Assembly: GCF_025200715.1 (NCBI RefSeq)
Contig: NZ_CP104143.1
Coordinates: forward strand, 1,302,001 to 1,366,000
Direction of reading: 5' to 3'
Origin: Rhizobium sullae
Lineage (GTDB): Bacteria; Pseudomonadota; Alphaproteobacteria; Rhizobiales; Rhizobiaceae
Length of the DNA stretch: 64,000 nucleotides
In this document: positions 1 through 14,578 of the stretch, in pieces
Position numbering within the stretch: position 1 is the first letter of the stretch
How the letters are laid out: each line of letters opens with the position of its first letter
Position numbers and translations under genes: made by a program
The notes under the pieces: model-generated
What the model was told of the DNA's origin: nothing
Databases searched by the model: none
The model's input: the letters and a program-made list of their open reading frames with translations, nothing else

Positions 1-496
1 GATTGCTGTCCACTTCGTAGAGGTCGGCATAGACCTCCGCCTGCGGGAAGGCTTCGGAAAAGCCCGGCAGGTTTTCCCAGTGGATCGCGCAGCGCTTGCC
101 GTTCAGGAGCCCTGCCTGAGCAAGCACATGCGCGCCCGTACAGAGGCTTCCGACGGCAACGCCGCGGTTGTAGGATTCGCGAAGCCAGGCATTGACGGAC
201 TTGTTGTTGAAATCCTCGACATCAATGCCCGAACAGACGAGCACCATGCTTGGCCGGTTCTCGCCGCTGAGATGCCGGCGCTCTTCAGCGAGGGAGGAAT
301 TCGCCTCGACGCCGATGCCGCAGGAGGAATAAACTTTGTTGCCGTCGACCGAGGTCAGCCGCCAAGTGTAAGCCGCGTAGCCGAGCATGCGGTTTGCGAT
401 GCGCAGCGTGTCGATCGCCGCCGAAAAGGGCAGCATGGTGAACTGGGGAACCATGAAGAACACGAGAGAACGCTTCTTGGTCAGCATCTTGTTCAT
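1..496 (-). CDS. GlxA-family transcriptional regulator, N-terminal part (cut by window edge)
   Basis: The 165 codons present read as the DJ-1/PfpI-like (class I amidotransferase-like) sensory half of a GlxA/CdhR-type regulator. The visible hallmarks are an N-terminal MNKMLTKKRSLVFFMVP segment and the nucleophile-elbow stretch GSLCTGAHVLAQAGLL followed by AIHWE. In this family an AraC-type HTH follows; it would lie before base 1, so it is not seen. The start at ATG 496 is chosen because the protein begins directly with the conserved strand. Family members often control catabolism of arginine, carnitine or betaine, but the effector cannot be told here. Confidence 0.8.
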   Translation of the reverse strand, partial: MNKMLTKKRSLVFFMVPQFTMLPFSAAIDTLRIANRMLGYAAYTWRLTSVDGNKVYSSCGIGVEANSSLAEERRHLSGENRPSMVLVCSGIDVEDFNNKSVNAWLRESYNRGVAVGSLCTGAHVLAQAGLLNGKRCAIHWENLPGFSEAFPQAEVYADLYEVDSN

Positions 497-731
497 GAGA
501 AAAATCCATGCTCGAGGGCGATTGCCTATTCGTTGCGTGGAATGCGCCGTTCCGATGTCTCAAAAGCGACATTCGCATGGAAAAATGCGGCCGTGAAGAG
601 CTATTTTGCGACATTGACGAATTAGACCATTGTCAAATGACGAAGCCAGCCTGCAAAAGTTGCGCCACCGGCTTATTTGCGAAATATATGCGTCTGAAAT
701 TCAAGATTAAATTTTTGTAGGCTGAAACGAT

Positions 732-767
732 GAAGGCGGCGCCGCCGGTGGGCTGGGCGCCGCCTTC
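732..767 (-). terminator. Strong hairpin after the DUF1127 gene
   Basis: A perfect 12-base inverted repeat (GAAGGCGGCGCC and its complement) has a 12-base loop and lies 25 bases past the stop codon of the minus-strand small gene. No T-run follows directly on the minus strand, so it may stabilise the 3' end rather than terminate alone. Confidence 0.5.
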
Positions 768-791
768 AAGCGGGGAGGTATGTCGCATTCA

Positions 792-989
792 TTACATTAC
801 CTTGCGTTCATCCGCGTCGTCTGCAGACGGCCAGCCAATATCTTTGCGGATGTCGAAAGGCATGGATTCGATTTCCCGCGCGTTCTGCCACTGGTGCCAG
901 GAATGTACGAGCCTGCGGGCAACGCTTGCTACATCAAAATGTGCGTCGGAGGATGAACTCTTGCCATCCCGGTAACCGATCGTAGTCAT
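792..989 (-). CDS. DUF1127-type small protein (65 aa)
   Basis: The C-terminal half carries the DUF1127 pattern: WQNAREIESMPFDIRKDIG, i.e. aromatic and basic residues, then a conserved D-I-G followed by W-P. DUF1127 proteins in alphaproteobacteria are short, positively charged and often RNA- or phosphate-related; several are LysR-activated. ATG 989 is preferred over an in-frame ATG six codons upstream because AAAGGAAA lies at proper distance before it. The gene stands alone, with a strong hairpin after it. Its promoter region shares a 13-base motif with the second DUF1127-like gene near 11.9 kb. Confidence 0.7.
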   Translation of the reverse strand: MTTIGYRDGKSSSSDAHFDVASVARRLVHSWHQWQNAREIESMPFDIRKDIGWPSADDADERKVM

Positions 990-1048
990 CGCCGTTTCCT
1001 TTCTCACGCGGTTTGCGCTTGGTGCTTAATATGCTCCTTGGTCATTCA

Positions 1049-1061
1049 TCAAACAAACGAA
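1049..1061 (-). promoter_or_regulatory. Shared motif upstream of DUF1127 gene (copy 1)
   Basis: TCAAACAAACGAA (plus strand) lies 60 bases before the start of the small gene and is identical to 11912-11924. Read on the minus strand it holds TTGTTT, which can serve as a -35 with CATATT 17 bases further. A GGTGCTTA string (1021-1028) lies between motif and gene; a similar GGTGCTA occurs in the other copy. I infer an activator site overlapping -35. Confidence 0.5.
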
Positions 1062-1329
1062 TAGATTTTATGGATACGATCAGATTTATTGAACGTCTTT
1101 AGGACGGTTAGCATGTCGCTTCGGCAGTGATGAACCACTTGTCGCAGACTGAAAAACGTGACGCAGAGGCCAAACGATACTGATGCAACCCAGTGAAATA
1201 TTGACGCAGGTGAGTCGGTTCTTTTGGGCAGGCCACAATAAAACAACCGTCCAAGTTCCGCGTCGGGTCAGGGCTACCGCAAGGCCTAGTTTGAGAATAC
1301 GACGAACAGATCGTTGGCTAACATGAAAA

Positions 1330-1337
1330 ATCCTGAC
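1330..1337. repeat. Left 8-base target-site duplication
   Basis: ATCCTGAC immediately outside the left end of the IS21-type remnant; repeated exactly at 1935-1942 outside the right end. Confidence 0.7.
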
Positions 1338-1934
1338 TGCAGATTCCGAGGCAATCCGCCCTCGCATTCCGAAATGATGCCGCCCCCCAATTCCGAGAAT
1401 TAACCGCCCCCTTGTTCCGAAATCATTCCGCCCCTGATTGGGCTGTTTGTCGGGGTGTTCTGCTGGTGAGACGTTCGTCCTTCGATTGCGCTGAGAGGAA
1501 AGAACGCGATGCCAGCGGAGAGACTCAAGATGCGGCGTGTCCGCGAGATTTTAAGATACCGATTTAAGGACTGTCTTGGCCACAAGTCGATTGCGGTGCG
1601 CGTTGGTGCGGCGCCGTCGACGGTGCGTGAGACGCTGCGCCGTGCGGAGATTGCCGGGCTTTCGCGGGGCTGCAGCATTGCTTGTGCCTGACAATGCCAA
1701 GGTCGCCGTGATCAAGACTTGCCTCTTTGATCTGCAGGTCAATCGCAGCTATGCCGGGATGCCGGCTCACTACGGGAGCGCTGTTCTTCCGACGCGACCG
1801 AGAAAGCCTCGTGACGCGAATGAACTGACAACAATTAATGCCAGCAGAACCGCAGCCTCAAGGGGACGAGATCATCCCCGAATCCGGGGGCGCAATCATC
1901 TCGGAACAGAGGGGCGGCTTCATCGGAATCAGCA
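1338..1934 (+). mobile_element. IS21-family element, internally deleted, both ends kept
   Basis: Both termini start TGC(A/T)GATTCCGA in inverted orientation. Inside each end lie imperfect tandem copies of a roughly 24-base unit of the form (A/G)TTCCGA-n-AT-n-AT-CCGCCCC (about four on the left, three on the right), which matches the multiple terminal repeats bound by IS21 transposases. The interior holds only two pieces of istA and no istB, so the element is about 0.6 kb instead of about 2.5 kb. It is flanked by an 8-base direct repeat, within the range IS21 elements generate. It may be a full copy that decayed in place, or a short derivative moved in trans. Confidence 0.8.
1509..1828 (+). pseudogene. 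istA transposase remnant
   Basis: The first frame starts MPAERLKMRRVREILRY and continues with an HTH (GHKSIAVRVGAAPSTVRETLRR), the N-terminus of IS21 IstA. After about 55 codons the sequence jumps, in another frame, to VPDNAKVAVIKTCLFDLQ and then AHYGSAVLPTRPRKPRD, which belong to the DDE catalytic core of the same protein. It then runs into the right end of the element. The link region, most of the core and the C-terminus are missing, so no active transposase can be made. Confidence 0.8.
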
Positions 1935-1942
1935 ATCCTGAC
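1935..1942. repeat. Right 8-base target-site duplication
   Basis: ATCCTGAC directly after the right end of the IS21-type remnant, identical to 1330-1337. Confidence 0.7.
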
Positions 1943-2081
1943 GCAAAGATTCGAAGTTCTTGAACTACTCAAACAGGAAGGACGGCCTGTGGATTTTGAC
2001 GTTGGTCAGATGTAAAGTCGCGCAATTGAATGCGCGCACATCCACCCAACGATATTGTACGCCGCAGGAGCGGTCACCGCT

Positions 2082-3848
2082 GTGGATCGAAAGCTTGCAG
2101 CCATCCTTTCCACCGATGTGGCCGGCTTCAGCCGCCTCACGGCGATTGACGAGGAGAGCACGGTTCGTGCACTTAACTTGTGCCATAGTCGGATCGCCGA
2201 GTTAGTGCGCGAGCATGGCGGTCGTATCTTCGGCAGCGCAGGCGACGGCCTTGTCGCGGAGTTCCCAAGTGCAGTTCAGGCGGTCCGGTGCGCGGTTGAA
2301 ATCCAGCGTCGCGTTCTCAGCCTCTCGGAAGACCTCCCACTGGATCGCCGTTTGGAATTTCGCATCGGCGTCAATCTGGGTGACGTGGTTGTGTCAGGTG
2401 ACGATCTGCTAGGCGATGGCGTCAACATCGCGGCGCGCTTGCAGGAGATGGCGGCCCCATCAGGCATCTGCATATCCGGGTCGGTACGCGAACATCTCGA
2501 TGGCAAGGTGCCGTTCACGCTGACCAGCCTTGGCGATCGGGCCTTGAAGAACATCCCCAGGCCAATTTCTGCCTTTCGGGTCGACTGGCGGCAAGAGACG
2601 CCCGAGGGCCGTGACGCGGGGTCAGGGCCATCTCTTGCGACCCGCTTTGGCAGGGACCAGCCGTCGATCGTGATCATGCCCTTCGACAACCTCAGCGGTC
2701 AGAGCGATGGGTACTTTGTGGACGGCGTCGTGGAGGAAATCACCGCCGCCCTTTCCCGTGTTCGGGACTTCTTTGTGATCGCCCGCCAGTCCGCGTTCAC
2801 GTACAAGGGACGTTTCGTCGACGTGCGTGACGTTGGCAGGGAACTTGGAGTCACTTACGTGGTCGAAGGGACCGTTCGCCGGGGAGGGGATCGGCTGCGC
2901 ATCTCTGTACAACTGGTCGACGCCGAGATGCGGACCCAGCTTTGGTCCGAGCGTTATGAGGGCGCGACCCACGACATCTTTGAGTTTCAGGACAGGATCG
3001 CGGCGCAGGTCGCGGGCGCAATCCATCCAGCCATCCGCAGCGCGGAAATCGAGGTGTCGAAGCGTAAGCCGCCTAGCAGTCTGCGCGCCTATGACCTCGT
3101 CATGCGTGCCTACCCACACCTCTGGGGTCACAACAAAGATGCTGTCAGGCGGGCGATACCGCTACTTGAGGATGCCATCGCGATCGACTCTGCTTACGGC
3201 CGAGCCCATGCATTTCTCGCATGGTGCCATGCGCAGAACCTCGGCTATATCTGGACCGAAGAGCCGGAGCGGGACTTGGAACGCGCCCTTAGGGCCACCG
3301 AGGCTGCGGCGCGCTCCATCGACGATGATCCGGCTGCCCTGACAGCCGTAGGTGGAGCGTTGAGCCACTGCGGCGATCAGGAGCGTGCTTCGGCTTACCT
3401 TGAAAGAGCGCTGGCGCTCGATCCGAACAATGCCTGGGCATGGGCGAGGTTTGGATGGGTTGCAAGCTACAAGGGCGAGCCTGATCGCGCTAAGGAGCGG
3501 TTCGAGCGGGCGATGACGCTCAGTCCGGCGGACCCGCTTGCCTTCAACATGAGAATGGGCTTCGCTCTCGCATTAGCTCTGGCAGGCTCCCTTTCAGAGG
3601 CAGTCTCCATCGCCCGGGAGGTAGTCAACAAACATCCAGAGGTCACCTGGCCTTATCGGATGATGACTGCGTGGTCGTCAATGGCAGGCGACCAGGACAC
3701 CGCTCGATGGGCCGCGAAGAAACTCTTGGCAGCCGAACCGGACTTTACGATCCAGCGCTATCTGACTCGGCCCGTGTTTCGAGCCGTACCGAAATGGGCC
3801 GATCAAATGGCCGAGGGCTTGCGGAAGGCAGGACTGCCCGAACATTGA
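2082..3848 (+). CDS. Class III adenylate/guanylate cyclase with TolB-like and TPR regions (588 aa)
   Basis: Residues 1-170 form a class III cyclase domain: the first metal Asp is D12 in STDVAGFSRL and the second is D55 in GSAGDGLVAEF; GVNIAARL follows. The Lys usual four residues before the second Asp (KxxGD) is replaced by Gly, as in a common rhizobial subgroup, so activity and base specificity are uncertain. Residues about 190-310 are TolB-like (PSIVIMPFDNLSG, then GVVEEITAALS), and the C-terminal 270 residues are TPR-like helices. GTG 2082 is chosen because it gives the typical start MDRKLAAILSTDV and AGGAG lies 11 bases upstream; TTG 2055 is the alternative. It is soluble, with no membrane segment seen. 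No operon partner. Confidence 0.85.
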   Translation: MDRKLAAILSTDVAGFSRLTAIDEESTVRALNLCHSRIAELVREHGGRIFGSAGDGLVAEFPSAVQAVRCAVEIQRRVLSLSEDLPLDRRLEFRIGVNLGDVVVSGDDLLGDGVNIAARLQEMAAPSGICISGSVREHLDGKVPFTLTSLGDRALKNIPRPISAFRVDWRQETPEGRDAGSGPSLATRFGRDQPSIVIMPFDNLSGQSDGYFVDGVVEEITAALSRVRDFFVIARQSAFTYKGRFVDVRDVGRELGVTYVVEGTVRRGGDRLRISVQLVDAEMRTQLWSERYEGATHDIFEFQDRIAAQVAGAIHPAIRSAEIEVSKRKPPSSLRAYDLVMRAYPHLWGHNKDAVRRAIPLLEDAIAIDSAYGRAHAFLAWCHAQNLGYIWTEEPERDLERALRATEAAARSIDDDPAALTAVGGALSHCGDQERASAYLERALALDPNNAWAWARFGWVASYKGEPDRAKERFERAMTLSPADPLAFNMRMGFALALALAGSLSEAVSIAREVVNKHPEVTWPYRMMTAWSSMAGDQDTARWAAKKLLAAEPDFTIQRYLTRPVFRAVPKWADQMAEGLRKAGLPEH

Positions 3849-4351
3849 CTGCAGTTAAACGCAATTATGCAGCAACTGCCACCGGATGCCAGTTCTGTGA
3901 AATCTGAGGGCGATGTCTCGGATCATCTTTGCCCATGACAGAAGAATTGCAGGGCGGCGATCAGTAGGAGCTTTGCAATAGCCCGAGACTTGTCCGCCGC
4001 CGAGGTCGCCTTTCGGGCCCATGCGCGAACCCGCTTCGCGGGAGGGAGCTCGCGGTGGGGCTGGTTTGATTATCTGAGGTTCTAGGCAGGTAGAGGGCAA
4101 AGAGTGCGAACATAGGCAAGATTGATAGCTTGCGAAAAGGGGACTGCCTTACAGTGCTCTATCGGGACGGAGGAAGACACGAGGCGAGGTGCGCTGCGTT
4201 TCGCCCGCCATGGTGCGGATCAATTCCACCGACTATGCAGTCGACGTTTCGGCGCAGGCGGGAGCCGACTGGAAGCACGATCTCTGGGCAGCGCTCTGCA
4301 GCGCTCCAGTTTCCTGAGCGGCAGTACGGCACGGCTTGATCGATCGCGGCG
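3849..4351. other. Intergenic stretch, no supported gene
   Basis: About 500 bases between the cyclase and the copper cluster. Short frames exist on both strands but none has a convincing ribosome site, and no protein family could be recognised. A small CCCGC/GCGGG hairpin near 4027-4039 is not followed by T residues. Confidence 0.5.
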
Positions 4352-4813
4352 TCAGCCTTTTCGGGGACGGATCTCCATGAACACGTATGGTGCGCCGGTC
4401 TCCGACGGGATCGCATAAACGTCATAGGACGCCTCCGGGTCGTCGCCCATTCCCAACGAGCCAGACGGCATGCCCGGCACGGCCAGCCCTCGAACGGGTG
4501 GCCGCTCCCGCAACAGGCGCTGGACGGCCTCGAGCGGCACGTGTCCCTCAAGGTAGTATTCCTCGATGACGGCGGTGTGGCATCCCTCCAATTCGGCGGG
4601 CACGTGCAGTCGCGCCTTGACAGCGGCAAGGTCGCCGGTGTCGCGGGCGTCGACGGAAAATCCTGCCGCCGCCATCGCCTTCGACCATTCATGGCAGCAG
4701 CCGCAGTTCGGATCCTTATAGACGGTCATCTCGGCCGGGACAGTGGCATGGGCCCTTCCCCCAAGGAACACTAGGGCGGATGCCGCCATCGCGATGAAGC
4801 TTCTCCTGTGCAT
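4352..4813 (-). CDS. DUF411 periplasmic metal-binding protein (153 aa)
   Basis: An N-terminal signal peptide (MHRRSFIAMAASALVFLGG, cleavage near AHA-T) is followed by VYKDPNCGCCHEW with Cys 37, 39 and 40, the signature of DUF411 proteins, and by the conserved GHVP and RPPVRGLAVPGMP segments. DUF411 members occur in copper and other metal resistance clusters and are thought to bind metal in the periplasm. ATG 4813 has GAGGAG 8 bases upstream; a GTG three codons earlier is less likely. It is the last gene of the copper cluster, 57 bases after the CusF-like gene. Confidence 0.85.
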   Translation of the reverse strand: MHRRSFIAMAASALVFLGGRAHATVPAEMTVYKDPNCGCCHEWSKAMAAAGFSVDARDTGDLAAVKARLHVPAELEGCHTAVIEEYYLEGHVPLEAVQRLLRERPPVRGLAVPGMPSGSLGMGDDPEASYDVYAIPSETGAPYVFMEIRPRKG

Positions 4814-4870
4814 CGTCTCCACTCCTCGATGTCCCGCCGCCCGGATGCCTCCGGGCGGCGGGAGGCTGGC

Positions 4871-5158
4871 TTACTTTACCTCGGTGACGGTCAGCTTGCC
4901 ATTCACGCGTTCGGCAACGAACTCGATGTTCGAACCTTCCTTGAGCCTTTCGAGCAGAGCCGGGTCTTCGACGCGGAAGACCATCGTCATCGCAGGCATG
5001 TCGAGGCTCTTCAGGTCCTCATGCTTGATGGTGACCTTGTTGGTCTTGGTGTCGACCTTGTTGACGACACCCTTGGTGAATTCCTGGGCGAACGCACCGA
5101 AGGCTGCGCTGGCCGAAAGCAGGGCGGCTACGCCGATCTTGATCATTGCGGTTTTCAT
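4871..5158 (-). CDS. CusF-like periplasmic copper-binding protein (95 aa)
   Basis: A signal peptide (ending near AFA-Q) precedes a small OB-fold protein with H46 and the DMPAMTMVF motif. Compared with E. coli CusF, the Cu(I) ligands His, Met, Met keep their spacing (H46, M57, M59), while the position of the capping Trp holds M54, a variant seen in many CusF-like proteins. It probably ferries Cu(I) in the periplasm. ATG 5158 follows AAGGAG by 7 bases. It lies 22 bases after the cupredoxin gene, in the same direction. No RND pump (CusA/B) is encoded nearby. Confidence 0.85.
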   Translation of the reverse strand: MKTAMIKIGVAALLSASAAFGAFAQEFTKGVVNKVDTKTNKVTIKHEDLKSLDMPAMTMVFRVEDPALLERLKEGSNIEFVAERVNGKLTVTEVK

Positions 5159-5180
5159 CTCTGTGTCTCCTTGGTTTCGA

Positions 5181-5660
5181 TTATTTCCCGGCGACGGTGA
5201 CGTCGCCATGCATGCCAGCCTCGTAGTGGCCGGGGATCAGGCAGGCGAACTTGAACTGCCCGTCGGTGGTGAACTTCCAGACGATCTCGCCGGATTGGCC
5301 GGCCGGAAGTCGGATCGAATTCGGATCGTCGTGTTCCATCTCCGGGAACTTCTCCATGACCGCCTTGTGCTCAAGGATCTTGTCTTCCTGATCGAGCACG
5401 AACTCGTGGTCGACCGTCCCGGCATTCTTGATCGCGATCTTGACCGTCTGCCCCTTGCGGACGTTGAAGACGGCGGGGGTGAATAGCATCTTGCCGTCGT
5501 CGGTTTCCTTCATCGTGACGCGGATCGTCTGCGTGGCCTTGGCTTTATCGCCAGGTTCGCCGATGGCCATTTTCTCAGCGTGGCCGCCGGCATGATTGCC
5601 GGCAGCCAAGGCTGGGGTTGCAAGGGCGGCCAGCGCCAGTGCCAATACAAAGTTCTTCAT
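5181..5660 (-). CDS. Plastocyanin/azurin-like cupredoxin (159 aa)
   Basis: A signal peptide ends near LATPALA. The mature protein starts with a His-rich stretch (GNHAGGHAEK) and contains all four type 1 copper ligands: H85 in VDHEFVL, then C140, H145 and M150 in FACLIPGHYEAGMHG. Proteins of this kind bind or carry copper and can hand electrons to a multicopper oxidase, which is encoded just upstream. ATG 5660 follows AAAGGA at normal distance; longer upstream frames lack a signal peptide start. Confidence 0.88.
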   Translation of the reverse strand: MKNFVLALALAALATPALAAGNHAGGHAEKMAIGEPGDKAKATQTIRVTMKETDDGKMLFTPAVFNVRKGQTVKIAIKNAGTVDHEFVLDQEDKILEHKAVMEKFPEMEHDDPNSIRLPAGQSGEIVWKFTTDGQFKFACLIPGHYEAGMHGDVTVAGK

Positions 5661-5695
5661 GGGTAAATCCTTTTCTTGATGTGGAAGATGGAGCC

Positions 5696-7042
5696 TCAGC
5701 CGTTTGTCGGCTTCGGGGTGATTTGCGTCTTCGCGTCCTTGGCCTTGGTCGCCGCCGGCAGTTCGCCGGTCCATTCCCAGGCCTGCGTTCCGGGCGGGTT
5801 CTCGTACCAGCCCGGATCGGCGTAATCGTCCGCCGAGATGCCCTCGCGGACCTTCACGACCGAGAACATGCCGCCCATCTCGATGGGGCCGTGCGGCCCC
5901 CAGCCGGTCATCATCGGAACGGTGTTCTCGGGAATGGGCATTTCCATTTCGCCCATGTCGGCCATGCCCTTGGTGCCCATGGGCATGTATTCAGGCTGCA
6001 GCTTCCTGATCTTCTCGGCGACCTTCGACTTGTCCGCACCGATGAAGGTCGGAATGTCGTGACCCATGGCGTTCATCGTGTGGTGCGACTTGTGGCAATG
6101 GATCGCCCAGTCGCCGAGATACCTGGCGTCGAACTCGTAGGCGCGCATCGCGCCGACCGGGATGTCGATGCTCACCTCCGGCCATCGCGCTTCCGGCCGC
6201 ACCCAGCCACCGTCGGTACATGTCACTTCGAAATCGTAGCCATGCATGTGGATCGGGTGGTTCGTCATCGTCAGGTTGCCGACGCGGACGCGGACGCGGT
6301 CGTTCCTGGAAACCACCAGGGGGCTGATGTCCGGGAACACGCGGCTGTTCCAGCACCACATGTTGAAGTCGGTCATCTCCATGATGCGCGGCACGTAGGA
6401 GCCGGGATCGATGTCGTAGGCGTTGAGCAGGAAGACGAAGTCGCGGTCGACGCGCATGAACTTCGGATCCTTGGGATGGACGACGAAGAAGCCCATCATG
6501 CCCATGGCCATCTGCACCATCTCGTCGGAGTGCGGGTGGTACATGAAGGTGCCGGACTTCACGAGGTCGAACTCGTAGACGTAGGTCTTGCCGACCGGGA
6601 TGTGCGGCTGCGTCAGGCCGCCGACGCCGTCCATGCCCGACGGCACGAGCATGCCGTGCCAGTGGATCGTCGTGTGCTCCGGCAGCTTGTTGGTGACGAA
6701 GATGCGGACGCGGTCGCCTTCGACGGCCTCGATCGTCGGGCCGGGCGACTGTCCGTTGTAACCCCATAAATATGCGGTCATGCCGTCGGCCATCTCGCGC
6801 TCGACCGGTTCGGCGACGAGGTGGAACTCCTTGACGCCGTTGTTCATCCGGTGAGGCAGGGTCCAGCCGTTGAGGGTGACCACCGGCTGGTAGTCCGGAC
6901 CCGAGGCCGGATGAAGCGGCGGCTGCATGTCGGCCGATGCCATTGTCGGGGCGTCGGGCAGACCCATCGCCGATGTCTTTGTCCAGGCGCCGGCCGCCAG
7001 CAGCGCCGCGCTCGCACCGAACAGTTGTCGTCTGTTGAACAT
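5696..7042 (-). CDS. Multicopper oxidase, CopA/CueO-like (448 aa)
   Basis: The N-terminus (MFNRRQLFGASAALLAAG) looks like a Tat signal with NRRQLFG. All four copper-binding segments are present: HWHG (about residue 127), HPH (169-171), HPIHMHG (262) and HCHKSHHTMNAM (315-326), which holds the T1 Cys, His and Met. A Met-rich tail segment (YMPMGTKGMADMGEMEMP) resembles the Cu(I)-binding region of copper oxidases. It likely oxidises Cu(I) in the periplasm. ATG 7042 follows AAAGGAA; it starts 14 bases after the TolC-type gene ends and belongs to one cluster with it. Confidence 0.92.
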   Translation of the reverse strand: MFNRRQLFGASAALLAAGAWTKTSAMGLPDAPTMASADMQPPLHPASGPDYQPVVTLNGWTLPHRMNNGVKEFHLVAEPVEREMADGMTAYLWGYNGQSPGPTIEAVEGDRVRIFVTNKLPEHTTIHWHGMLVPSGMDGVGGLTQPHIPVGKTYVYEFDLVKSGTFMYHPHSDEMVQMAMGMMGFFVVHPKDPKFMRVDRDFVFLLNAYDIDPGSYVPRIMEMTDFNMWCWNSRVFPDISPLVVSRNDRVRVRVGNLTMTNHPIHMHGYDFEVTCTDGGWVRPEARWPEVSIDIPVGAMRAYEFDARYLGDWAIHCHKSHHTMNAMGHDIPTFIGADKSKVAEKIRKLQPEYMPMGTKGMADMGEMEMPIPENTVPMMTGWGPHGPIEMGGMFSVVKVREGISADDYADPGWYENPPGTQAWEWTGELPAATKAKDAKTQITPKPTNG

Positions 7043-7056
7043 GGTGAGTTCCTTTC

Positions 7057-8523
7057 TCAATGGCCGCCGCCGCTGCTGCTTTCGGAAGCAGCGGCGACCT
7101 CGGTCTCTGCCGACGCGTTCGTCGCGCCGCCGCCGTAGATCGCCGGCGCGAGGTTGGCTTCGGCGAGCCAGAAGTCGCGCTTCGCATTGACGGAAAGCAG
7201 CATGGCGTTGATTTTGTCGCGGGTGTCGGTCAGCAGCTCGAAGGTGTTGGTGATCATGCCGTTGTAGGTCAGCAGGGATTCTTCTTCGACCTTGGTGCGC
7301 AGCGGCACGACGGCGTTGCGGTAGTGCCGCGCGATGTCGTAGTTCGCGCGGTAGGCCTCATAGGCGGATCGTGCTTGCGAGCGGACATTGACGGCCTTCT
7401 CGGCGAGCTGGTTTGCCGCCCGCATATAGGCCACCTCGGCCTTGCGCATGCGGGCCTTGCCGGTGTCGAAGATCGGGATGGCGAACTCCAGCTCGACCTG
7501 AGCCGTCGTCCTTGTCTTCTTCTCGTCGTCCTCGATTTCCTGTTCGGTTTCGAAGCCCGTCAGGATTTCGAGGTCGGTGACGTAACGTGTGGCTTCGGTG
7601 AGCCCATAGGACCTGGCAGTGGCCTCCAGTTCGAGCTTCGCGACCTGCAGGTCGATCCGGTTTCGGAGGGCTTCGGCCTCGATGGTGTCGCGCCGGACGA
7701 CGGCCTTGGGTAGCGGTGGCAGGCTGTTGGGAACCTGGTAGTCCAGGTCGGAGCCCCACAGACCCATCAGCCGTGTCAGCTCCTCCTTGGCGAGACGGGC
7801 CGCCAGGCGGGCCTTCGCCGTTTCTGCGGCGAGTTCGGCGACGAACACATGTTCGCGGGCCTGGGCGCCCTTGGCCATCGCGCCGGTCTCGCCCAGCTTC
7901 TCGGCCAGTTCGGAAGCGGCGTCGGCCGCTGCCTGGGCACGCTGGAGCTGCCCGACGTTTTCCCAGGCCGCCACCGCGCCGATAAAGGCACGCCGCGTGT
8001 CGGCGGCGAGCTGGAGGGTCGTCACCGCCGCGGTCAACTGCGCCTGGCGGAAGCGGGTGTCGGCGATCGCCACGTCCCGGTTCTTCGTCGCGAGCGCCAG
8101 GATGTTCGTCGTGATCATCCCTTCGATCGTCTTGAACGCCTCGAGTTCCGGCGTCCCTATGCCTGTCGTGCCGATGGAGACGGTCGGGTTGATGAACAGC
8201 GTCGACTGCCAGGCGTCGGCGGCGCTGTCGCCGAGATCGGCATACGCCGCTTGCAGACCTTTGTTGTTGAGCAGGGCGATCTGGACGGCGGTTTCGGCGT
8301 CGAGTGCCTGCTTGCGGGCAAGAAGCGTCTTGACTTGGGCCGAGGCTGCCTGAGCCTGTTGCTGATTTTGTACCCAGACGGTCTGCTTGGCGGTTACCGT
8401 CGAGGTCTTCGCCGCGACGGTGCTGAAGCCCGCGTCGCGCTTTGCGTAGTCGGCTCCGCTCACACAGCTCGCCAAGACAACGGGAAGGGTCGCGACGGCA
8501 GCAAGTTTCCTGATCGTGATCAT
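7057..8523 (-). CDS. TolC-family outer-membrane efflux lipoprotein (488 aa)
   Basis: A lipobox LASC (C20) follows a short signal, so the protein is probably lipid-anchored like CusC/OprM. The long body has the paired coiled-coil pattern of outer-membrane factors (Ala-, Gln- and Glu-rich helices, with an RKAEVAYMRAANQLAEKAV stretch). Its ATG overlaps the stop of the preceding lipoprotein gene (ATGA), which shows translational coupling. No membrane-fusion protein or inner-membrane pump is encoded next to it, so the partner pump must be elsewhere or absent. Confidence 0.88.
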   Translation of the reverse strand: MITIRKLAAVATLPVVLASCVSGADYAKRDAGFSTVAAKTSTVTAKQTVWVQNQQQAQAASAQVKTLLARKQALDAETAVQIALLNNKGLQAAYADLGDSAADAWQSTLFINPTVSIGTTGIGTPELEAFKTIEGMITTNILALATKNRDVAIADTRFRQAQLTAAVTTLQLAADTRRAFIGAVAAWENVGQLQRAQAAADAASELAEKLGETGAMAKGAQAREHVFVAELAAETAKARLAARLAKEELTRLMGLWGSDLDYQVPNSLPPLPKAVVRRDTIEAEALRNRIDLQVAKLELEATARSYGLTEATRYVTDLEILTGFETEQEIEDDEKKTRTTAQVELEFAIPIFDTGKARMRKAEVAYMRAANQLAEKAVNVRSQARSAYEAYRANYDIARHYRNAVVPLRTKVEEESLLTYNGMITNTFELLTDTRDKINAMLLSVNAKRDFWLAEANLAPAIYGGGATNASAETEVAAASESSSGGGH

Positions 8524-8747
8524 GACGCATCTCCGCTCTTCGGAGCCTGCTGCTCATTCTGCTGACGCCAGGGTTTGGGGTCGACCGGTTGACGGGAAAC
8601 ATAGCCGGAAATGGGCGAGTGATATCGAACCGGACGCACAGAATACGTCTGTTCAACGTCCGTCGATGCAATGACATCGGGAGGTAATGTGGATGCGCAG
8701 CCACCTATGACAAGGGCCAGCCCCACCACCAATATGGAAGGTCTCAT
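8520..8747 (-). CDS. Small lipoprotein coupled to the TolC-type gene (75 aa)
   Basis: A lipoprotein signal with IGGC (C17) is followed by a Pro-, Gln-rich tail (VRPVRYHSPISGYVSRQ) without recognised domain. The stop overlaps the start of the outer-membrane factor by four bases. Its role is unknown; position suggests an accessory of the efflux protein or of copper handling. Confidence 0.7.
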   Translation of the reverse strand: MRPSILVVGLALVIGGCASTLPPDVIASTDVEQTYSVRPVRYHSPISGYVSRQPVDPKPWRQQNEQQAPKSGDAS

Positions 8748-8835
8748 TTTTGAAAATCCGAATAAAAGACTTCGAGCGGCAGACCCGGTGATACCGGGAA
8801 TGCCCTGCGGACCCGCAATGCGGGTTAGTCTCTAT

Positions 8836-9243
8836 TCAGATATTCGGGGGACGGTGCAGGGGCGGCAGCTCGCCAAAGGTTTGCTGATCGTCGACGAACT
8901 GCCGGATGGATGTCTCGACGGGTCCGCCGACGTCGGGGCCTTCACAAATCATGCCAAGCCCGCCGCAGAAATCGCTGCAGCATTCCTGCTTGACGAGCTT
9001 TGAGACACCATTGGCGTTATCGGAGATGTCGCCATGCGAATGATCGAGATGGGCCGCCTCCGCCACGTCGTGACCCCCGTGGGACGGCATCGTTTCCGAG
9101 GCAACGGCTTCCAGCTCGGGGACAGAGGAGCCATGCATCACCGCGTTGGCGTTGGATAGCGAGTACCCCGCCAGCGATACGATGATCACCAGCCGTATCA
9201 TCACGAGCAGCTTGCTCACTGTGATTCGGTACATCTTGCCCAT
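8836..9243 (-). CDS. Exported His/Cys-rich protein heading the copper cluster (about 135 aa)
   Basis: No family recognised. An N-terminal hydrophobic segment (LLVMIRLVIIVSLAGYSL) serves as signal or anchor; then comes a His-rich part (MPSHGGHDVAEAAHLDHSHGD) and a Cys-rich part (KQECCSDFCGGLGMICEG) that could bind copper. The start is uncertain: ATG 9243, or ATG 9234, or a further upstream ATG at 9279. It is the first gene of the cluster in transcription order, 88 bases ahead of the small lipoprotein gene. Confidence 0.6.
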   Translation of the reverse strand: MGKMYRITVSKLLVMIRLVIIVSLAGYSLSNANAVMHGSSVPELEAVASETMPSHGGHDVAEAAHLDHSHGDISDNANGVSKLVKQECCSDFCGGLGMICEGPDVGGPVETSIRQFVDDQQTFGELPPLHRPPNI

Positions 9244-10021
9244 TCCCAACGAGCTACATGCAAAGCAGCCCGATTTCAATTAGGGCCTACGTGTCTTCAA
9301 CATTCGAGTCCTTTATGTGGCGCGAACATCACGTTGTGGGTCTCCGTCATCAAATTTCCGATAAGTCGCCCCGTGGCGCTGGCCGATCCGTTCGACGGAA
9401 GCAAGTGACGAATCCTGTCGGGATCGCGGAGCCTGCCGCGTTCGACGACGCACGTGAAAGCGAGGACGCCATGAATACGGTGCGATGCTTCTCACGCAGA
9501 ACGTGTGTCACATCGATTTCACGCGACTGACGATGGGGGGCGTGCTTAGTCACAACGGGCAATTTCAGTCCATCTCTGGCTCCGCTCGTCCTGAGGGCGT
9601 CAGACATAATCCGGCCGGGATGAGGCGTCGGTCCGATGGGCGCGTTCTCCCCGGGGGCCGGTTCGTTCGAATTGACGCGATGTGGGGTATTTCATGACGA
9701 TCAAGACAGCATTGTTGAGAATGTCTCTGATTATCATCTCCGGGTGGGTCATGGTCGGCGCGATCACCTTGGTAATGTTCCATTGAACCGCGGGTTGCAT
9801 CGGTGCGGTTCCTGGTGCAGCGAAAACGATCGCTGAACTTGCGTATGACGAACAGAGACGCAGGTCTTGACGATCACCGACCCGACGGCCAACTGCGGTC
9901 CGCCCCCCCATATCGATCCCATGACCATGATGAAAATAGTCGCGCAGCGTCCTCTGGAACGATCCCTCTACCTGGTTGCAGGCCGCGATCCGACGTCGTG
10001 GCCGGGGCAGGGGCGCTGGCC
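9244..10021. other. Long intergenic stretch with at most one tiny gene
   Basis: Almost 800 bases between the copper cluster and the next convincing gene. A possible 30-codon membrane peptide frame (9694-9786) is the only thing I can point to; other frames look like chance. Confidence 0.5.
9694..9786 (+). CDS. Possible 30-aa membrane peptide
   Basis: The frame reads MTIKTALLRMSLIIISGWVM and continues VGAITLVMFH, a single hydrophobic helix with a basic start, preceded by GGGGTATTTC. It is too short to prove by sequence. It resembles other single-helix peptides only in general form. Confidence 0.3.
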   Translation: MTIKTALLRMSLIIISGWVMVGAITLVMFH

Positions 10022-10465
10022 TTAATGCATGGCCTCGATAAAGGCGCGGCGATAAAACACGCTGAGGTTGATCCGTTCTGTAGCGACTGCCGCAAGCTTC
10101 TTTTCAAGACGGCGCTCGAACTCTCGCGATTGGGCTGCCGGCGGCCTGCCGTGGGGCGTTGTGGGCTTTAACCTGATCCGTGGTCCGAGGTCGTCGCAAT
10201 ATTGGGCAAGCACCATCCCGGCGTTGACCAGCAGGGTTCTTATCTGGGGACGGTGCTCGGCGGCGATGACGAGGCCAAACGACTTGATCAGGACAGGCTT
10301 CGGGACTGGCAGCTCGATCTCGTCGACGATGTCGTTTCCCACTTGCGCTCCCTCGGCGAAGACGAGGTACTGGTCCACCAGATCACGGGCGGCTTTGAGG
10401 GTCTCTGTATCCGGGTTGTATCGGAACCAGGTTTCATTGAAAGGACTCAGTGATCCATATGTCAT
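10022..10465 (-). CDS. Conserved-type hypothetical protein (147 aa)
   Basis: No family recognised. The protein is soluble, with no signal or membrane segment. It starts MTYGSLSPFNETWFRYNPD, has a central region on electing helices (AARDLVDQYLVFAEGAQVG) and a basic C-terminus (REFERRLEKKLAAVATERI). A good ribosome site (GGAG, 6 bases) precedes ATG 10465. It is divergent from the universal stress protein gene, 235 bases away, which may mean a shared stress promoter region. Confidence 0.6.
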   Translation of the reverse strand: MTYGSLSPFNETWFRYNPDTETLKAARDLVDQYLVFAEGAQVGNDIVDEIELPVPKPVLIKSFGLVIAAEHRPQIRTLLVNAGMVLAQYCDDLGPRIRLKPTTPHGRPPAAQSREFERRLEKKLAAVATERINLSVFYRRAFIEAMH

Positions 10466-10700
10466 CAGGAACTCCTTCGCCCTTCAAAATGAACGTGGGG
10501 ACTGCCTGATTGTTCAAATGATGCCGCAGCTCGGCTGCCCGCCTGGCTGCGCCCGCGCAGGATATTCTGCCGCGGCGCGTTGCCTCTTTGCCATGGAAGT
10601 GGTCGACAAGTGCGCGGCGTTGCTAGGTATGGGGCGCAGGAGTAGACTTCAAATGTGATGGACCGGAGCGATGTGGGAGCATCGCGGAAGGAGGTCCGGT

Positions 10701-11603
10701 ATGAACAACGCGCCCGCAAACGACAACGCGCGGAAACCGCCCTCGGCAGAGGCCGGCGTCATCTTCGCCGGCCATGTGCATGAAGTGACCGTCCATGCCG
10801 ACGTTCTCGCTCTGCTGCCCGATCCGGCAACTGCGCGACCGTGCCTGGATATCGCCGAAGACGCCGCCCGCGCCATCCACGGCACCATGGCTGTGGCTCA
10901 TGTCGGTGCGGATCCGAAAGGGATGATTGCCGCACCGGAGGAGATCGACCTGCAGATGCTGCGAGACCGGACGGAAGGGTCGCCGCGCGAGCGGTTCGAG
11001 CAGGTCGCCCGCGCCTTCGAGGATTGGAAGCAGGACAAGCCCGGCCGGGAACGGCTCCTTCTCGATGACTGCCGCGGCGATCTCAGTCGCTGCGTGACCG
11101 CCGAAACCCATGAGGCGGCGCTCGTCGTCGCCCCGTGGCATGGCAACATGGATGCCCGCGATGCGTTTCACGATCTTCTTTTCCATGAGCGCAAGCTGGT
11201 GCTGACACAGCCTTGCGGTTCCTATGCCGGCAATCTGTTGGGCCATGTGGTGATCGGCTGGAAACCGCATGATCATGTGCAGGATGCCGCCACCGCCGCC
11301 AGACGCTGGCTGGCCGCGTCCGATCGCGTGACGGTTCTATGCGTCAACGACAAACCGGACGGAAGCTACCAGTTAACGGCAAGGGAACTGCTTGATCAGC
11401 TGGGGCTTGATGGCGACGTCGCCGCAATCAGCTCGGGAGGCCGGTCCGTCGGGGAGGCGATTCTCGATTTCGCCAAGTCGGCGAATGCGACGTGCCTGTT
11501 GATCGGCGCTTTCAAGCATGGCTATTTCCTGGAACTGCTGCTCGGCCGTGTCACTTATTACCTGCTGTCGCATGCGCCGCTTCCCTTAATGATGAAGCAT
11601 TAG
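10701..11603 (+). CDS. Universal stress protein, UspA family (300 aa)
   Basis: The length and two half-domains indicate a tandem UspA protein. The C-terminal half carries the USP nucleotide-binding end region: LLIGAFKHGYFLELLLGRVT followed by YYLLSHAPLPLMM, in place of the usual G-x-x-G-H-G. AAGGAGG directly precedes ATG 10701, which decides the start against a frame opening ten codons upstream. Such double USPs often respond to low oxygen or metal stress. The last four bases overlap the convergent small gene. Confidence 0.85.
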   Translation: MNNAPANDNARKPPSAEAGVIFAGHVHEVTVHADVLALLPDPATARPCLDIAEDAARAIHGTMAVAHVGADPKGMIAAPEEIDLQMLRDRTEGSPRERFEQVARAFEDWKQDKPGRERLLLDDCRGDLSRCVTAETHEAALVVAPWHGNMDARDAFHDLLFHERKLVLTQPCGSYAGNLLGHVVIGWKPHDHVQDAATAARRWLAASDRVTVLCVNDKPDGSYQLTARELLDQLGLDGDVAAISSGGRSVGEAILDFAKSANATCLLIGAFKHGYFLELLLGRVTYYLLSHAPLPLMMKH

Positions 11604-11860
11604 CGGCGATCACTGGAGGGCCAGCCGGGCGTGAATCGCATTTCATGTTGCATCGCCAACGCAGAACTCTGCTGAGAAGCGGAGTGTCGTGTGGATAATT
11701 CTCGAGTATTGTTACCCGGATAGGGGGCGACATCAGCGATCAGGTGGCTGGGCAGGGTGCTCATCTGCCGTATGGTGTTCTCCCAGGTCGTGCGCTGCAG
11801 TTGTGTTGCCCTGAATGCGAAGAAGGTGTCCAGAATGCTGTATGCTGTCCCGGTCATCAT
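11600..11860 (-). CDS. DUF1127-like small protein (86 aa)
   Basis: The N-terminal half (WENTIRQMSTLPSHLIADV followed by APYP) aligns by eye with the DUF1127 gene near 0.9 kb: W-(E/Q)-N, I, (L/M)-P, D-(I/V), P. The tail is Ser- and Gln-rich. AAGGAGG lies just upstream; ATG 11860 gives better spacing than the adjoining ATG 11863. It is divergent from the LysR gene and its promoter carries the same 13-base motif as the other DUF1127 gene, which supports it being real and co-regulated. Confidence 0.6.
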   Translation of the reverse strand: MMTGTAYSILDTFFAFRATQLQRTTWENTIRQMSTLPSHLIADVAPYPGNNTRELSTRHSASQQSSALAMQHEMRFTPGWPSSDRR

Positions 11861-11911
11861 GGCCTCCTTGGTTTGTCGAGCCATGGTGCTAAGATAGCCA
11901 CGCGTTGACTT

Positions 11912-11924
11912 TCAAACAAACGAA
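11912..11924 (-). promoter_or_regulatory. Shared motif upstream of DUF1127-like gene (copy 2)
   Basis: TCAAACAAACGAA, identical to 1049-1061, 52 bases before the small gene. On the minus strand TTGTTT and TATCTT are 17 bases apart and can form the promoter. The motif also lies 43 bases before the LysR start, so it may serve both directions. Confidence 0.55.
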
Positions 11925-11926
11925 AT

Positions 11927-11944
11927 GATATGGTGCTTAGTATC
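11927..11944. promoter_or_regulatory. Possible LysR box (GATA-N10-TATC)
   Basis: A short inverted repeat with LysR-like spacing directly next to the 13-base motif and just before the LysR gene. Short repeats of this size can occur by chance. Confidence 0.3.
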
Positions 11945-11966
11945 AGAAAAATTGAAAGATGCGACG

Positions 11967-12866
11967 ATGACGATACCCTTTCGGCGCCCGATCCCGCTGC
12001 TCGACAATGATGTTCTGAGAACCTTTGTCGCCATTGCGGAAACAGGCAATTTTTCGACTGCTGCCGAGGCCGTGTTCCGCACGCCGTCGGCGGTTTCCAT
12101 GCAGATCAAGAAGCTCGAGGAGCAGCTGGGCGCGACGCTCTTCATGCGCGATGCGCGTTCGGTCACGCTGACGCAGCACGGCGAGCTGTTGCTGACCTAT
12201 GCCCGCAACATTCTGGCGCTCTCCAACGAGGCGGTTTCCCGCTTCATCATGCCGGAACTCAGCGGCGTCGTGCGGCTGGGCGCGCCGGAAGATATCGGCG
12301 AGCGCCTGCTGCCAAGGATCCTGAAGAGCTTCGCGGAGAGCTATCCCGGCATCATGGTCGATGTGACGATCGACATGAGCCAAGGCCTCAAGAAGCGCAT
12401 GGAAGAGCAAAGGCTGGATCTGGCGCTGATCAATTGCGCAACGCGGCCGTTTCCGACAGGCGGAGAGATCGTTTTCCGTGAACGCCTCGTCTGGGCGGGT
12501 GCGAAATGCGGAACAGCTCACAGGCGCGATCCTCTGCCGATCTCGATCTGGGAAGACGGCTGCATCTGGCGCCAGGAGGCGCTGGCGCAGCTGGAGCGCA
12601 ACAAGCGGCCGTACCGCGTCGCCTATCTGAGCGGCCATACGATGGCGCAGCGTGCCGCTGTGCTTTCCGATCTTGCGATCGCGCCGCTGCCGCGCTCCTA
12701 TATCGGCGAAGACATGGTCATTCTCGACGCGCAGGAAGGCCTGCCCGAACTCGGCTCGTTCGATATCCGGCTGCTGACGGCCTCGCAGCTCTCAGGGCCT
12801 ATGGAGGCCGTGGCAGACAGCATCCGCTTCGCTTTCGCGGAAAAGGCAAAAGCTGTCGCTGCTTGA
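11967..12866 (+). CDS. LysR-family transcriptional regulator (299 aa), VtlR-like candidate
   Basis: The N-terminus is a LysR winged HTH (LRTFVAIAETGNFSTAAEAV, then RTPSAVSMQIKKLEEQLGA) followed by the two-lobe effector domain. ATG 11967 gives the usual start a few residues before LDNDVLRTF. Known VtlR of Brucella and Agrobacterium is a LysR activator of small DUF1127 genes and of an AbcR sRNA; the divergent DUF1127-like gene here and the shared promoter motif make this protein a candidate for that role. The assignment is inference; LrhA-like function is the alternative. Confidence 0.85.
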   Translation: MTIPFRRPIPLLDNDVLRTFVAIAETGNFSTAAEAVFRTPSAVSMQIKKLEEQLGATLFMRDARSVTLTQHGELLLTYARNILALSNEAVSRFIMPELSGVVRLGAPEDIGERLLPRILKSFAESYPGIMVDVTIDMSQGLKKRMEEQRLDLALINCATRPFPTGGEIVFRERLVWAGAKCGTAHRRDPLPISIWEDGCIWRQEALAQLERNKRPYRVAYLSGHTMAQRAAVLSDLAIAPLPRSYIGEDMVILDAQEGLPELGSFDIRLLTASQLSGPMEAVADSIRFAFAEKAKAVAA

Positions 12867-12970
12867 TCCGGACGGCGATGAACCTTATTGGATTCGGCGC
12901 GTTGAATGGCCGGAGCGGCGGAGGTTGCTTCGGCCAGGCGACGTTTAGTTTCCAAAAGAGGATTTCCAAA

Positions 12971-13126
12971 ATGACGATGACGGTCAAAATCGGCGCAGCG
13001 CTGATGCTGCTTCTGGCGCTTTCTTCGTGCGGCAATACCATCCGCGGTTTCGGCCGCGATACGGCAAATGCCGTCAACGCGACGCAGGACGCCGGCCGTT
13101 CGGTCAACCGCGCCGCAACCCGCTAA
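12971..13126 (+). CDS. Entericidin-like small lipoprotein (51 aa)
   Basis: MTMTVKIGAALMLLLALSSC is a lipoprotein signal with C20; the short mature part (GNTIRGFGRDTANAVNATQ, then DAGRSVNRAATR) fits the EcnA/EcnB family, in which entericidin peptides are linked to stationary-phase and osmotic responses. GAGGA lies 8 bases before ATG 12971. It is 104 bases after the LysR gene on the same strand. Confidence 0.8.
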   Translation: MTMTVKIGAALMLLLALSSCGNTIRGFGRDTANAVNATQDAGRSVNRAATR

Positions 13127-13131
13127 AACTT

Positions 13132-13482
13132 TCAGATCGCTGCGGCAGGGTAGGCGCGTTCGAGGCCGCCCGATCGGTTAAGGCCAGTGCGGAAGGCAAG
13201 ATAGGCCGGATGCTGGCTCGACTTGGCCGCCTCCATCAACTGAATCTGAAGCCGCGCCGGCGCGGCTTCGCCGATCCACAGTCCGGTACTTTCAAGTTTT
13301 AGCGAATTGAGAAAAGGAGCTGCCGCCGCCAGATCCAGATACCGATGCAAACCGTCGATCAGGCTGTCGTCCTGCGCCGTATTTTCCATGAGCAGCGAAA
13401 GATAGGATTTGTCCGCTTCGGAAGCGCCCGCAAACTTGCTGGCAACGGTCTCGCGATCGGGAAAGGAAGCGGCTGGCGTCAT
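13132..13482 (-). CDS. Hypothetical protein (116 aa)
   Basis: No family recognised. It is a helical, soluble protein (ESTGLWIGEAAPARLQIQLM near the C-terminal half) without signal peptide or membrane helix. It is convergent with the entericidin gene, five bases apart. The ribosome site is weak (GGATGACCG). Codon use looks like its neighbours. Confidence 0.55.
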   Translation of the reverse strand: MTPAASFPDRETVASKFAGASEADKSYLSLLMENTAQDDSLIDGLHRYLDLAAAAPFLNSLKLESTGLWIGEAAPARLQIQLMEAAKSSQHPAYLAFRTGLNRSGGLERAYPAAAI

Positions 13483-13582
13483 CGGTCATCCATTACATGC
13501 TGCCATGCTCACGGCAGCCTTCGATTAGAAAGTGAGCCGTCAGACTAGGCGGCATAGCCTTCGCGAGGCTGGAATTGCAGTC

Positions 13583-14578
13583 TCACAGAGCCGCTTTCAC
13601 CTTTTCTGCAACGTCGGCAGGCACCCATCGTGTCCAGAAGTCGGCGTAATTGCGCAGAAAATAGAGCGCGGCGTCCTCATTGTTTGCCCGGTTTTCGTCC
13701 TGCCATGCCAGAACGTCGTTTATGGTGTTGTTGTCCCAAGAGCGGGCGCGCAGATAGCCGAGCACTGGACCGGCACGGTCGGCAAACGCCTTGGTGACGA
13801 CGGTGAAGGCCTGGGAGACAGGATAGGCGTTGAGCTGCGGACGGGCACAGCCTTCGACCGAAGTGCAGGCAAGCCATTCCGCCTTGTCGTGGCTGACGCC
13901 CATACTGAGCAGCGTCATGTCATATTTGCCGAGGATCGCCGTTGGCGCCCAGTAATAGCCGAGCCAGCCGATCTTGGCGTCGAAGGCGTTGGCGATTGAA
14001 TCGTCCAGATCCTTCGGACTTCCGCTGTCAATCAGCTCGAAGCCTGCACTATCGCCTTTCAAGGCCTTGAAGATATTGGCGGTCGAAATCCTGCAGCTCC
14101 AGCCGGACGGGCAATTGTGGATGGCGCCCTTGGAGGCGCTTTTCGGCGAGGGGAAGAGGTCCGGCCGCTTCAGAGCATCCTGCACGGAACGGATATCGGG
14201 ATTTGCATCGGCGATGAATTTCGGGATCCACCAGCCTTCGATTGCGCCGTCTGCCAAAATCTCGGAGGCTTGAACCAGCCGACCGCTTGTTGCCGCCGCC
14301 TCGAGTTGAGTCCGGACGGACGCGGTCCAGAGTTCGGGCGCGATGTCGGGTTCGCCCTTCTGATCCATCGAAGCAAAGGTCGGCACGGTATCGCCGGCAA
14401 CGGTCGTGACATTGCAGCCGTAGCCGTTTTCGAGAATGAACTTGTCGAAATTGGCGGCAATCGCGGCGGATGCCCAATTCATCTCCGCGATCGAGACGTT
14501 ACCGCAGTCCGCCTGCGCGGCGCGGCCGCCGGCGAAGAGACATACGGCAAAAGTAAGCGAAGCCAGGATGATCTTCAT
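13583..14578 (-). CDS. Glycine betaine/proline-type ABC substrate-binding protein (331 aa)
   Basis: A signal peptide (cleavage near RAAQA-D) precedes an OpuAC/ProX-type fold: the N-terminal VSIAEMNWASAAIAANFDKF strand-helix, DIAPELWTASV, and the aromatic-rich GWWIPKF and GYYWAPTAIL segments that form the quaternary-ammonium pocket. Cys pairs (C153 and C160 region, and LACTSVEGC) may make disulfides. No permease or ATPase gene is adjacent, so it is an orphan binding protein or works with a transporter elsewhere. Confidence 0.85.
   Translation of the reverse strand: MKIILASLTFAVCLFAGGRAAQADCGNVSIAEMNWASAAIAANFDKFILENGYGCNVTTVAGDTVPTFASMDQKGEPDIAPELWTASVRTQLEAAATSGRLVQASEILADGAIEGWWIPKFIADANPDIRSVQDALKRPDLFPSPKSASKGAIHNCPSGWSCRISTANIFKALKGDSAGFELIDSGSPKDLDDSIANAFDAKIGWLGYYWAPTAILGKYDMTLLSMGVSHDKAEWLACTSVEGCARPQLNAYPVSQAFTVVTKAFADRAGPVLGYLRARSWDNNTINDVLAWQDENRANNEDAALYFLRNYADFWTRWVPADVAEKVKAAL

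Follow-up and report, generated by a model that had tools for sequence, protein, structure and literature searches.

Why should one 13-base sequence stand before two small genes of the same genome, once directly beside the gene for a LysR-type regulator? We addressed this question in a window comprising the whole analyzed stretch of 64,000 nucleotides of Rhizobium sullae (NZ_CP104143.1), whose genome counts 7,595,929 bases. The sequence, TCAAACAAACGAA, lies on the plus strand at 1049-1061, upstream of a minus-strand gene for a 65-residue protein (gene 1, 792-989), and again at 11912-11924, between a minus-strand gene for an 86-residue protein (gene 2, 11600-11860) and a plus-strand lysR gene for a 299-residue protein (11967-12866). 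Judging from the composite in which it stands, its fixed geometry, and its conservation, the 13-mer is one half of a larger two-box element. The two copies are most probably the activation-type halves of two operators, site A beside lysR and site B before gene 1, for the LysR protein encoded at 11967-12866, which would head a small, autoregulated regulon.

The initial annotation had described the 13-mer as occurring exactly twice, and this count was borne out both in the window and in the whole genome. None of 100 dinucleotide shuffles of the window contained TCAAACAAACGAA, and the genome holds two exact copies, both inside the window and each before a small gene, rather than a random scatter. 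A dyad of the form TCA-N6-TTGAA lies 18 bases past each 13-mer, on the side away from the small gene. Both 13-mer and dyad contain a T-N11-A box, and the box centers are 31 base pairs (bp) apart at both places. At site B, the activation-type half is the 13-mer at 1049-1061, whose reverse complement contains the predicted −35 hexamer of gene 1, TTGTTT (1051-1056), and the recognition-type half is TCAGATTTATTGAA (1080-1093, plus strand). At site A, the 13-mer at 11912-11924 contains the predicted −35 hexamer TTGTTT of gene 2 (minus strand, 11914-11919) and lies within the predicted lysR promoter spacer, while the recognition-type half, TCAGAAAAATTGAA (11943-11956, plus strand), falls in the lysR leader. 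The flanks and spacers of the two sites are unlike each other.

We searched the genome for the 13-mer and for the composite pattern (13-mer, 18 bases, dyad), with the reversed pattern alongside as a control in each case. At up to three mismatches the composite was found at exactly two places, sites A and B, and its reversed control at none. The 13-mer with one mismatch occurs at five further places, compared with two matches at up to one mismatch for the reversed control. These five places were considered as further operators and rejected, as the positions 31 bp on carry 0, 4, 1, 3, and 0 of the 8 dyad arm bases. A site at G000:C1:3428548-3428591, obtained with three mismatches in a looser search, was taken as chance. 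A second shared element between motif and gene, GGTGCTTA or GGTGCTA, had also been proposed; it did not survive comparison with relatives, being kept on the gene side in 1 of 77 lysR-side sites, and a copy stands on the lysR side in 20 of the 77.

Orthologues of the LysR protein at E ≤1e-80 were found in 154 of 199 genomes of the family and in 85 of 109 genera. We took the best 80 of 569 relatives (LysR 76-100% identical) as lysR-side loci, and within 130 nucleotides of lysR the composite was present without mismatch in 67 of them, with one mismatch in 10, and with two in 1, or 78 of the 80. Shuffles of such stretches, 2120 in number, gave a best match of at least 4 mismatches every time. Among 26 more distant loci (L143-L168, drawn from the best 30 matches; LysR 59-82% identical), the composite was found without mismatch in 20, with one in 3, and with two in 1, or 24 of the 26. 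The dyad arms TCA and TGA are invariant in these 24 good distant sites and the center is variable, the pattern expected of a protein-bound dyad.

At both small genes, TTGTTT is followed after 17 bases by a possible −10 element, as the initial annotation had noted. The predicted −10 hexamers are CATATT for gene 1 (1028-1033, minus strand) and TATCTT for gene 2 (11891-11896, minus strand). CATATT recurs at exactly 17 bp in 16 of 20 copies of site B from genomes in which it is separated from site A, and the other four are one or two letters off; in the distant loci, the gene 2-side hexamer at 17-bp spacing carries A as its second base and T as its sixth in 23 of 24. Gene 2 and lysR diverge from site A, and for lysR, sequence and conservation point to a −35 hexamer, TTGACT (11905-11910, plus strand), and a −10 region, TGATATGGT (11926-11934, plus strand). 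TTGAC adjoins the 13-mer in all 77 lysR-side sites counted and in none of the 46 other sites of the same loci. By our reading, a small gene is divergent from lysR in 74 of the 80 loci (not in L038 and L040-L044) and in 25 of the 26 distant loci (not in L152). With the predicted transcription starts assumed to lie about 7 bases past the −10 hexamers, the center of the dyad falls near −64, and that of the 13-mer near −33, at each small gene. LysR systems commonly pair a T-N11-A box for recognition near −65 with an activation site at −35/−10, the protein activating a divergent target and repressing itself (PMC8407307); both places examined here have the T-N11-A dyad near −65 and a second site over the −35.

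Across 61 genomes searched at up to two mismatches, the composite was present in all 37 congeneric genomes and in 1 of the 24 others, and the control gave 0 in all 61. Sites A and B, assigned in the congeneric genomes by our reading of the matches, occur together in 36 of the 37, G025 having site A only; a second match in G025 and a third in G004 we discounted as chance on the basis of sequence and strand. A composite match was observed in G045, a genome of another family. Sites A and B lie 307-315 bp apart in 15 of the 36 genomes and between 2,884 bp and 1.05 megabases (Mb) apart in 18, and in 3 they lie on different contigs; R. sullae, at 10.9 kilobases (kb), is among the 18 separated on one contig. 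We inspected the surroundings of site B in 20 separated genomes besides R. sullae itself, and in every one a homologue of gene 1 with the motif RKD-[I/L/F/V]-G-[W/Y]-P stands downstream in the right orientation. Site B is thus kept over large distances and away from its old neighbor, and therefore argues for a trans-acting factor.

The same association was seen in the 80 lysR loci, which contain 46 further sites beyond the lysR-side one. The gene 1 motif follows 40 of these 46, including 21 of the 21 that lie 300-400 bp from lysR, and the remaining 6 (in L038 and L040-L044) are gene 2's own sites. In those six loci, as in genomes G014, G027, and G033, gene 2 was observed about 5-9 kb from lysR with its own composite, giving three sites. 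The arrangement of A and B looks old in these comparisons, because a second site at up to three mismatches was found upstream of lysR in 13 of the 26 distant loci, in a scan made without a shuffle control, and L143, L148, and L154 have, beyond the first small gene, another that carries a gene 1-like motif. In L156, L158-L161, L163, L165, and L167, a second site lies past the divergent small gene, and no gene 1 homologue was recognized within roughly 1.5 kb.

The two small genes had been called DUF1127-type, a description that needs qualification. Neither window protein gave any Pfam or NCBIfam match, DUF1127 (PF06568) included, at E up to 5, and a minority of their relatives do match PF06568, weakly. 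The gene 1 protein carries the motif RKDIGWP and has 31 homologues, at least 2 of them named 'DUF1127 domain-containing', whereas the gene 2 protein has 8 homologues, the 7 named ones all from Rhizobium. We aligned 17 relatives of gene 1 and 17 of gene 2, the window proteins included, as well as 13 divergent small proteins of the distant loci; PF06568 was matched at E ≤1 by 5 of the 17 (best 4.3e-5), 4 of the 17 (best 6e-6), and 1 of the 13 (best 5e-4), respectively. In hhalign comparisons, the distant-loci set gave a probability of 97% against the gene 1 set and 96% against the gene 2 set, while the gene 1 and gene 2 sets gave only 17% against each other. By these measures both proteins may be called remotely DUF1127-like at most.

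A related arrangement was found elsewhere in the genome. A looser composite search (control 0) returned C1:392226-392269, where the site has three mismatches and stands before a true DUF1127 gene (G000:C1:392418-392714, locus L012; E 8.5e-8), and a LysR gene lies on the other side of this site. The LysR protein of this pair is 36% identical to the window LysR over 259 residues, and it may be called LrhA-like only by that resemblance. Of 37 genomes searched, 23 have the DUF1127 gene, and these are all the congeneric ones among them; a related site with two or three mismatches stands upstream of it in 23 of 23, compared with at least 4 mismatches in each of 1150 shuffles. The core TCAGTCCAACGAATGTTTCTAATG of the related site is invariant in all 23. 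The LysR neighbor was confirmed in the three loci inspected (L012, L189, and L190), and orthologues are represented by L190-L211. The two-box architecture thus seems, from these sequences, to recur in a related LysR/DUF1127 pair. Another DUF1127 gene with a LysR gene nearby (L013, C2:220512) was rejected as a further pair, its LysR being 31% identical over 164 residues and its surroundings holding no composite (best match 7 mismatches).

Which protein would read these sites? The initial annotation had taken the LysR for a VtlR-like activator and the 13-mer for its box, a proposal with precedents: VtlR activates small DUF1127-type genes in Brucella melitensis (PMC12595884) and a small hypothetical gene in Agrobacterium (PMC7486931), and genes 1 and 2 are remotely DUF1127-like. 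The window LysR has the LysR helix-turn-helix and substrate domains (PF00126, PF03466). LrhA is its best NCBIfam model (NF011673), at 162 bits and short of the equivalog cut-off of 530, and LrhA also provides its closest solved structures in the PDB (7yhj and 22xo, E about 1e-41). VtlR, or LsrB, is encoded with trxB in Rhizobiales (PMC11975290), and the sole trxB over cut-off in this genome (G000:C1:2176526-2177446) is followed by a different LysR gene, L131:2478-3377, which is lsrB/VtlR. We aligned the window LysR with this LsrB of the same genome and found 33% identity over 152 residues, compared with 48-100% over most of the length between the window LysR and its own listed orthologues, which places the window LysR outside VtlR. 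The published VtlR box, GCAT-N3-TG-N3-T (PMC7486931), is present at neither promoter and occurs 7 times in the window against 8.41 expected, and the VtlR motifs given in PMC7486931 and PMC12595884 are unlike the 13-mer. No Rfam family, AbcR included, reached its gathering score in window positions 1-14000. The comparisons indicate that the window LysR is not VtlR, because the trxB-linked LysR is separate, identity to LsrB is low, and the VtlR box is absent from both promoters; where it identifies the LysR, the proposal is already refuted, and as a whole we consider it very improbable. What stands of it, by comparison only, is a LysR-type box and two small genes under one type of operator, the regulator being probably the product of the lysR gene at 11967.

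Other explanations concern the sites themselves. The 13-mer could be no regulatory box but overlapping core promoter, in which the small-gene −35 and the lysR spacer coincide, kept by RNA polymerase rather than by LysR; the −35 and the −10 that follows it after 17 bp at each site fit this, as does the TTGAC that adjoins the lysR-side sites. We judge it decidedly unlikely, however, as the conserved stretch in the distant loci extends well past the −35 hexamer, the separate dyad, always 31 bp away, serves no evident purpose in a promoter, the genome-wide search at up to three mismatches gave no other composite, and all 46 B-type sites of the lysR loci lack the lysR −35 yet keep both boxes. Binding by another LysR protein, alone or together with the window LysR, is unlikely but deserves more weight, the candidate being the one beside the DUF1127 gene at C1:392 kb. 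The related composite at that locus in 23 of 23 congeneric genomes means that recognition may be similar; on the other hand, the 13-mer there reads TCAGTCCAACGAA and not TCARWCAAAYRAA in all 23, and site A stands directly before a lysR of the window type in 78 of the 80 loci and in 24 of the 26 distant ones. We find it scarcely credible that the 13-mers are recent copies, made by promoter duplication or gene conversion and without shared control. Their identity over 13 bases in the window would suit such copying, but flanks and spacers differ, the two 13-mers are 1-4 bases apart in the 35 other congeneric genomes with both sites, and the pair of sites looks old, since a second site is present in half (13 of 26) of the distant loci. 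Given that variation, the exact identity of the two 13-mers in the window is partly accident.

On the reading that we prefer, in which the LysR protein encoded at 11967-12866 acts on sites A and B, each operator would consist of two T-N11-A boxes 31 bp, or three helical turns, apart, the dyad lying at about −64 and the 13-mer covering the −35. On such an operator, a tetramer of LysR would hold on to the dyad and reach the 13-mer, and in this position could activate the small genes, gene 2 through site A and gene 1 through site B; bound at site A, it would in addition cover the spacer and leader of lysR and so may repress lysR. Geometry and linkage are our grounds for proposing LysR as the binder, an activating effect on the small genes, autorepression, and a co-inducer for LysR. 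Several points weigh against this proposal. The assignment of the sites to the regulator rests on linkage and co-occurrence, the related LysR of the same genome (36% over 259 residues) could bind too, and the −35 and −10 hexamers are predicted by consensus only. Two of the 80 loci, L038 and L042, have 17 rather than 18 bases between the boxes and failed the composite test, and in two of the 26 distant loci, L151 and L152, with 5 and 6 mismatches, the 13-mer is decayed and the dyad kept. In distant orthologue loci TTGAC is not beside the 13-mer; therefore the lysR promoter would be placed differently there, and autorepression is less clear. Finally, where A and B adjoin, the coding sequence of gene 2 extends at its 3′ end into site B, whose conservation there may be partly coding.

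The arrangement in relatives suggests how the two sites came to lie so far apart in R. sullae. L021, the locus of Rhizobium sp. P32RR-XVIII, and R. tropici-like loci share the order lysR, site A, gene 2, site B, gene 1, with the tail of gene 2, such as FNKPDGINKIYSFE, running into site B; we infer that this order is ancestral. Window positions 1-1093 and 11720-14660 align to L021 positions 8633-9715 and 9755-12695. About 10.6 kb was most likely inserted here between the site B dyad and the middle of gene 2, because these flanks are only about 40 bp apart in L021. The intervening stretch (1094-11719) is absent between the aligned flanks in L021, and its left edge abuts the site B dyad. A putative remnant of the old 3′ end of gene 2, TFNKSDRIHKIYSFV (1049-1096, minus strand, in the open reading frame 1049-1246), overlaps site B and resembles the C-terminus of gene 2 in L021, SFNKPDGINKIYSFE, and the last approximately 120 of the 261 bases of the present gene 2 do not align to L021. 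We also weighed the opposite history, in which the window kept the older arrangement and L021 underwent a deletion; that sites A and B adjoin in 15 congeneric genomes, and that a tail of gene 2 persists beside site B, favors an insertion instead. If there was an insertion, the 11-kb spacing between the two 13-mers is a historical accident. By Pfam, the products of the intervening stretch, which includes a copper cluster, are a cyclase-TPR protein, DUF411, CusF, a cupredoxin, a multicopper oxidase, an outer-membrane efflux protein, and a Usp protein. Near its left edge, at 1509-1941, there are short open reading frames that look like mobile-element remnants and that we take to resemble IS21-type proteins; Pfam gave only a sub-threshold sigma-70 region 4 there.

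The system appears to be of the autoregulated LysR type, an already known kind, with a two-box operator that is widely conserved in the genomes compared. It shares with the classical LysR divergent promoter (PMC8407307) the T-N11-A box near −65, the second site over the −35, and a target divergent from the regulator; it differs in that a second operator stands before a further small gene, that the targets are DUF1127-like, and that it is known here from sequence alone. Like the VtlR/LsrB regulons of Brucella and Agrobacterium (PMC7486931, PMC11975290, PMC12595884), it would place small DUF1127-type genes of Rhizobiales under LysR-type control, but the LysR protein and its box are distinct, and lysR is not linked to trxB. 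A fourth Brucella DUF1127 gene, RS13730/BAB2_0473, is said in PMC12595884 to lack the VtlR motif. Escherichia coli LrhA is the best NCBIfam and structure match of the window LysR, but the score stays far below the 530-bit cut-off. For the E. coli LysR protein YhaJ, PMC11739112 proposes the motif TCAAATTTTTTGAAGA and says that activation sites are not assigned; this motif has the same TCA-N6-TTGAA arms and spacing as the recognition half described here, while regulator and target are other ones. We found no description of the two-box operator in a limited look at excerpts of the open-licence literature on DUF1127 and LysR and on LrhA in Rhizobium (including PMC11975290, PMC12501420, and PMC12595884).

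DUF1127 proteins are widespread and small, and their control and role are largely open. We tentatively suggest that an LrhA-like LysR and DUF1127-like small proteins might form a recurrent module of Rhizobiaceae, in which one genome uses the two-box operator, at its 31-bp spacing, for two related pairs of regulator and small protein. The main output of the regulators would then be the small proteins, which might act back on the regulator or, like other DUF1127 proteins, on a sensor kinase or an RNA target. Because so few targets are predicted, and all are small DUF1127-like proteins, such a regulator would be a clean handle on the function of these proteins. Moreover, related genomes in which the operators lie from about 310 bp to 1 Mb apart, with both intact, suggest how a local gene pair becomes a trans-acting regulon.

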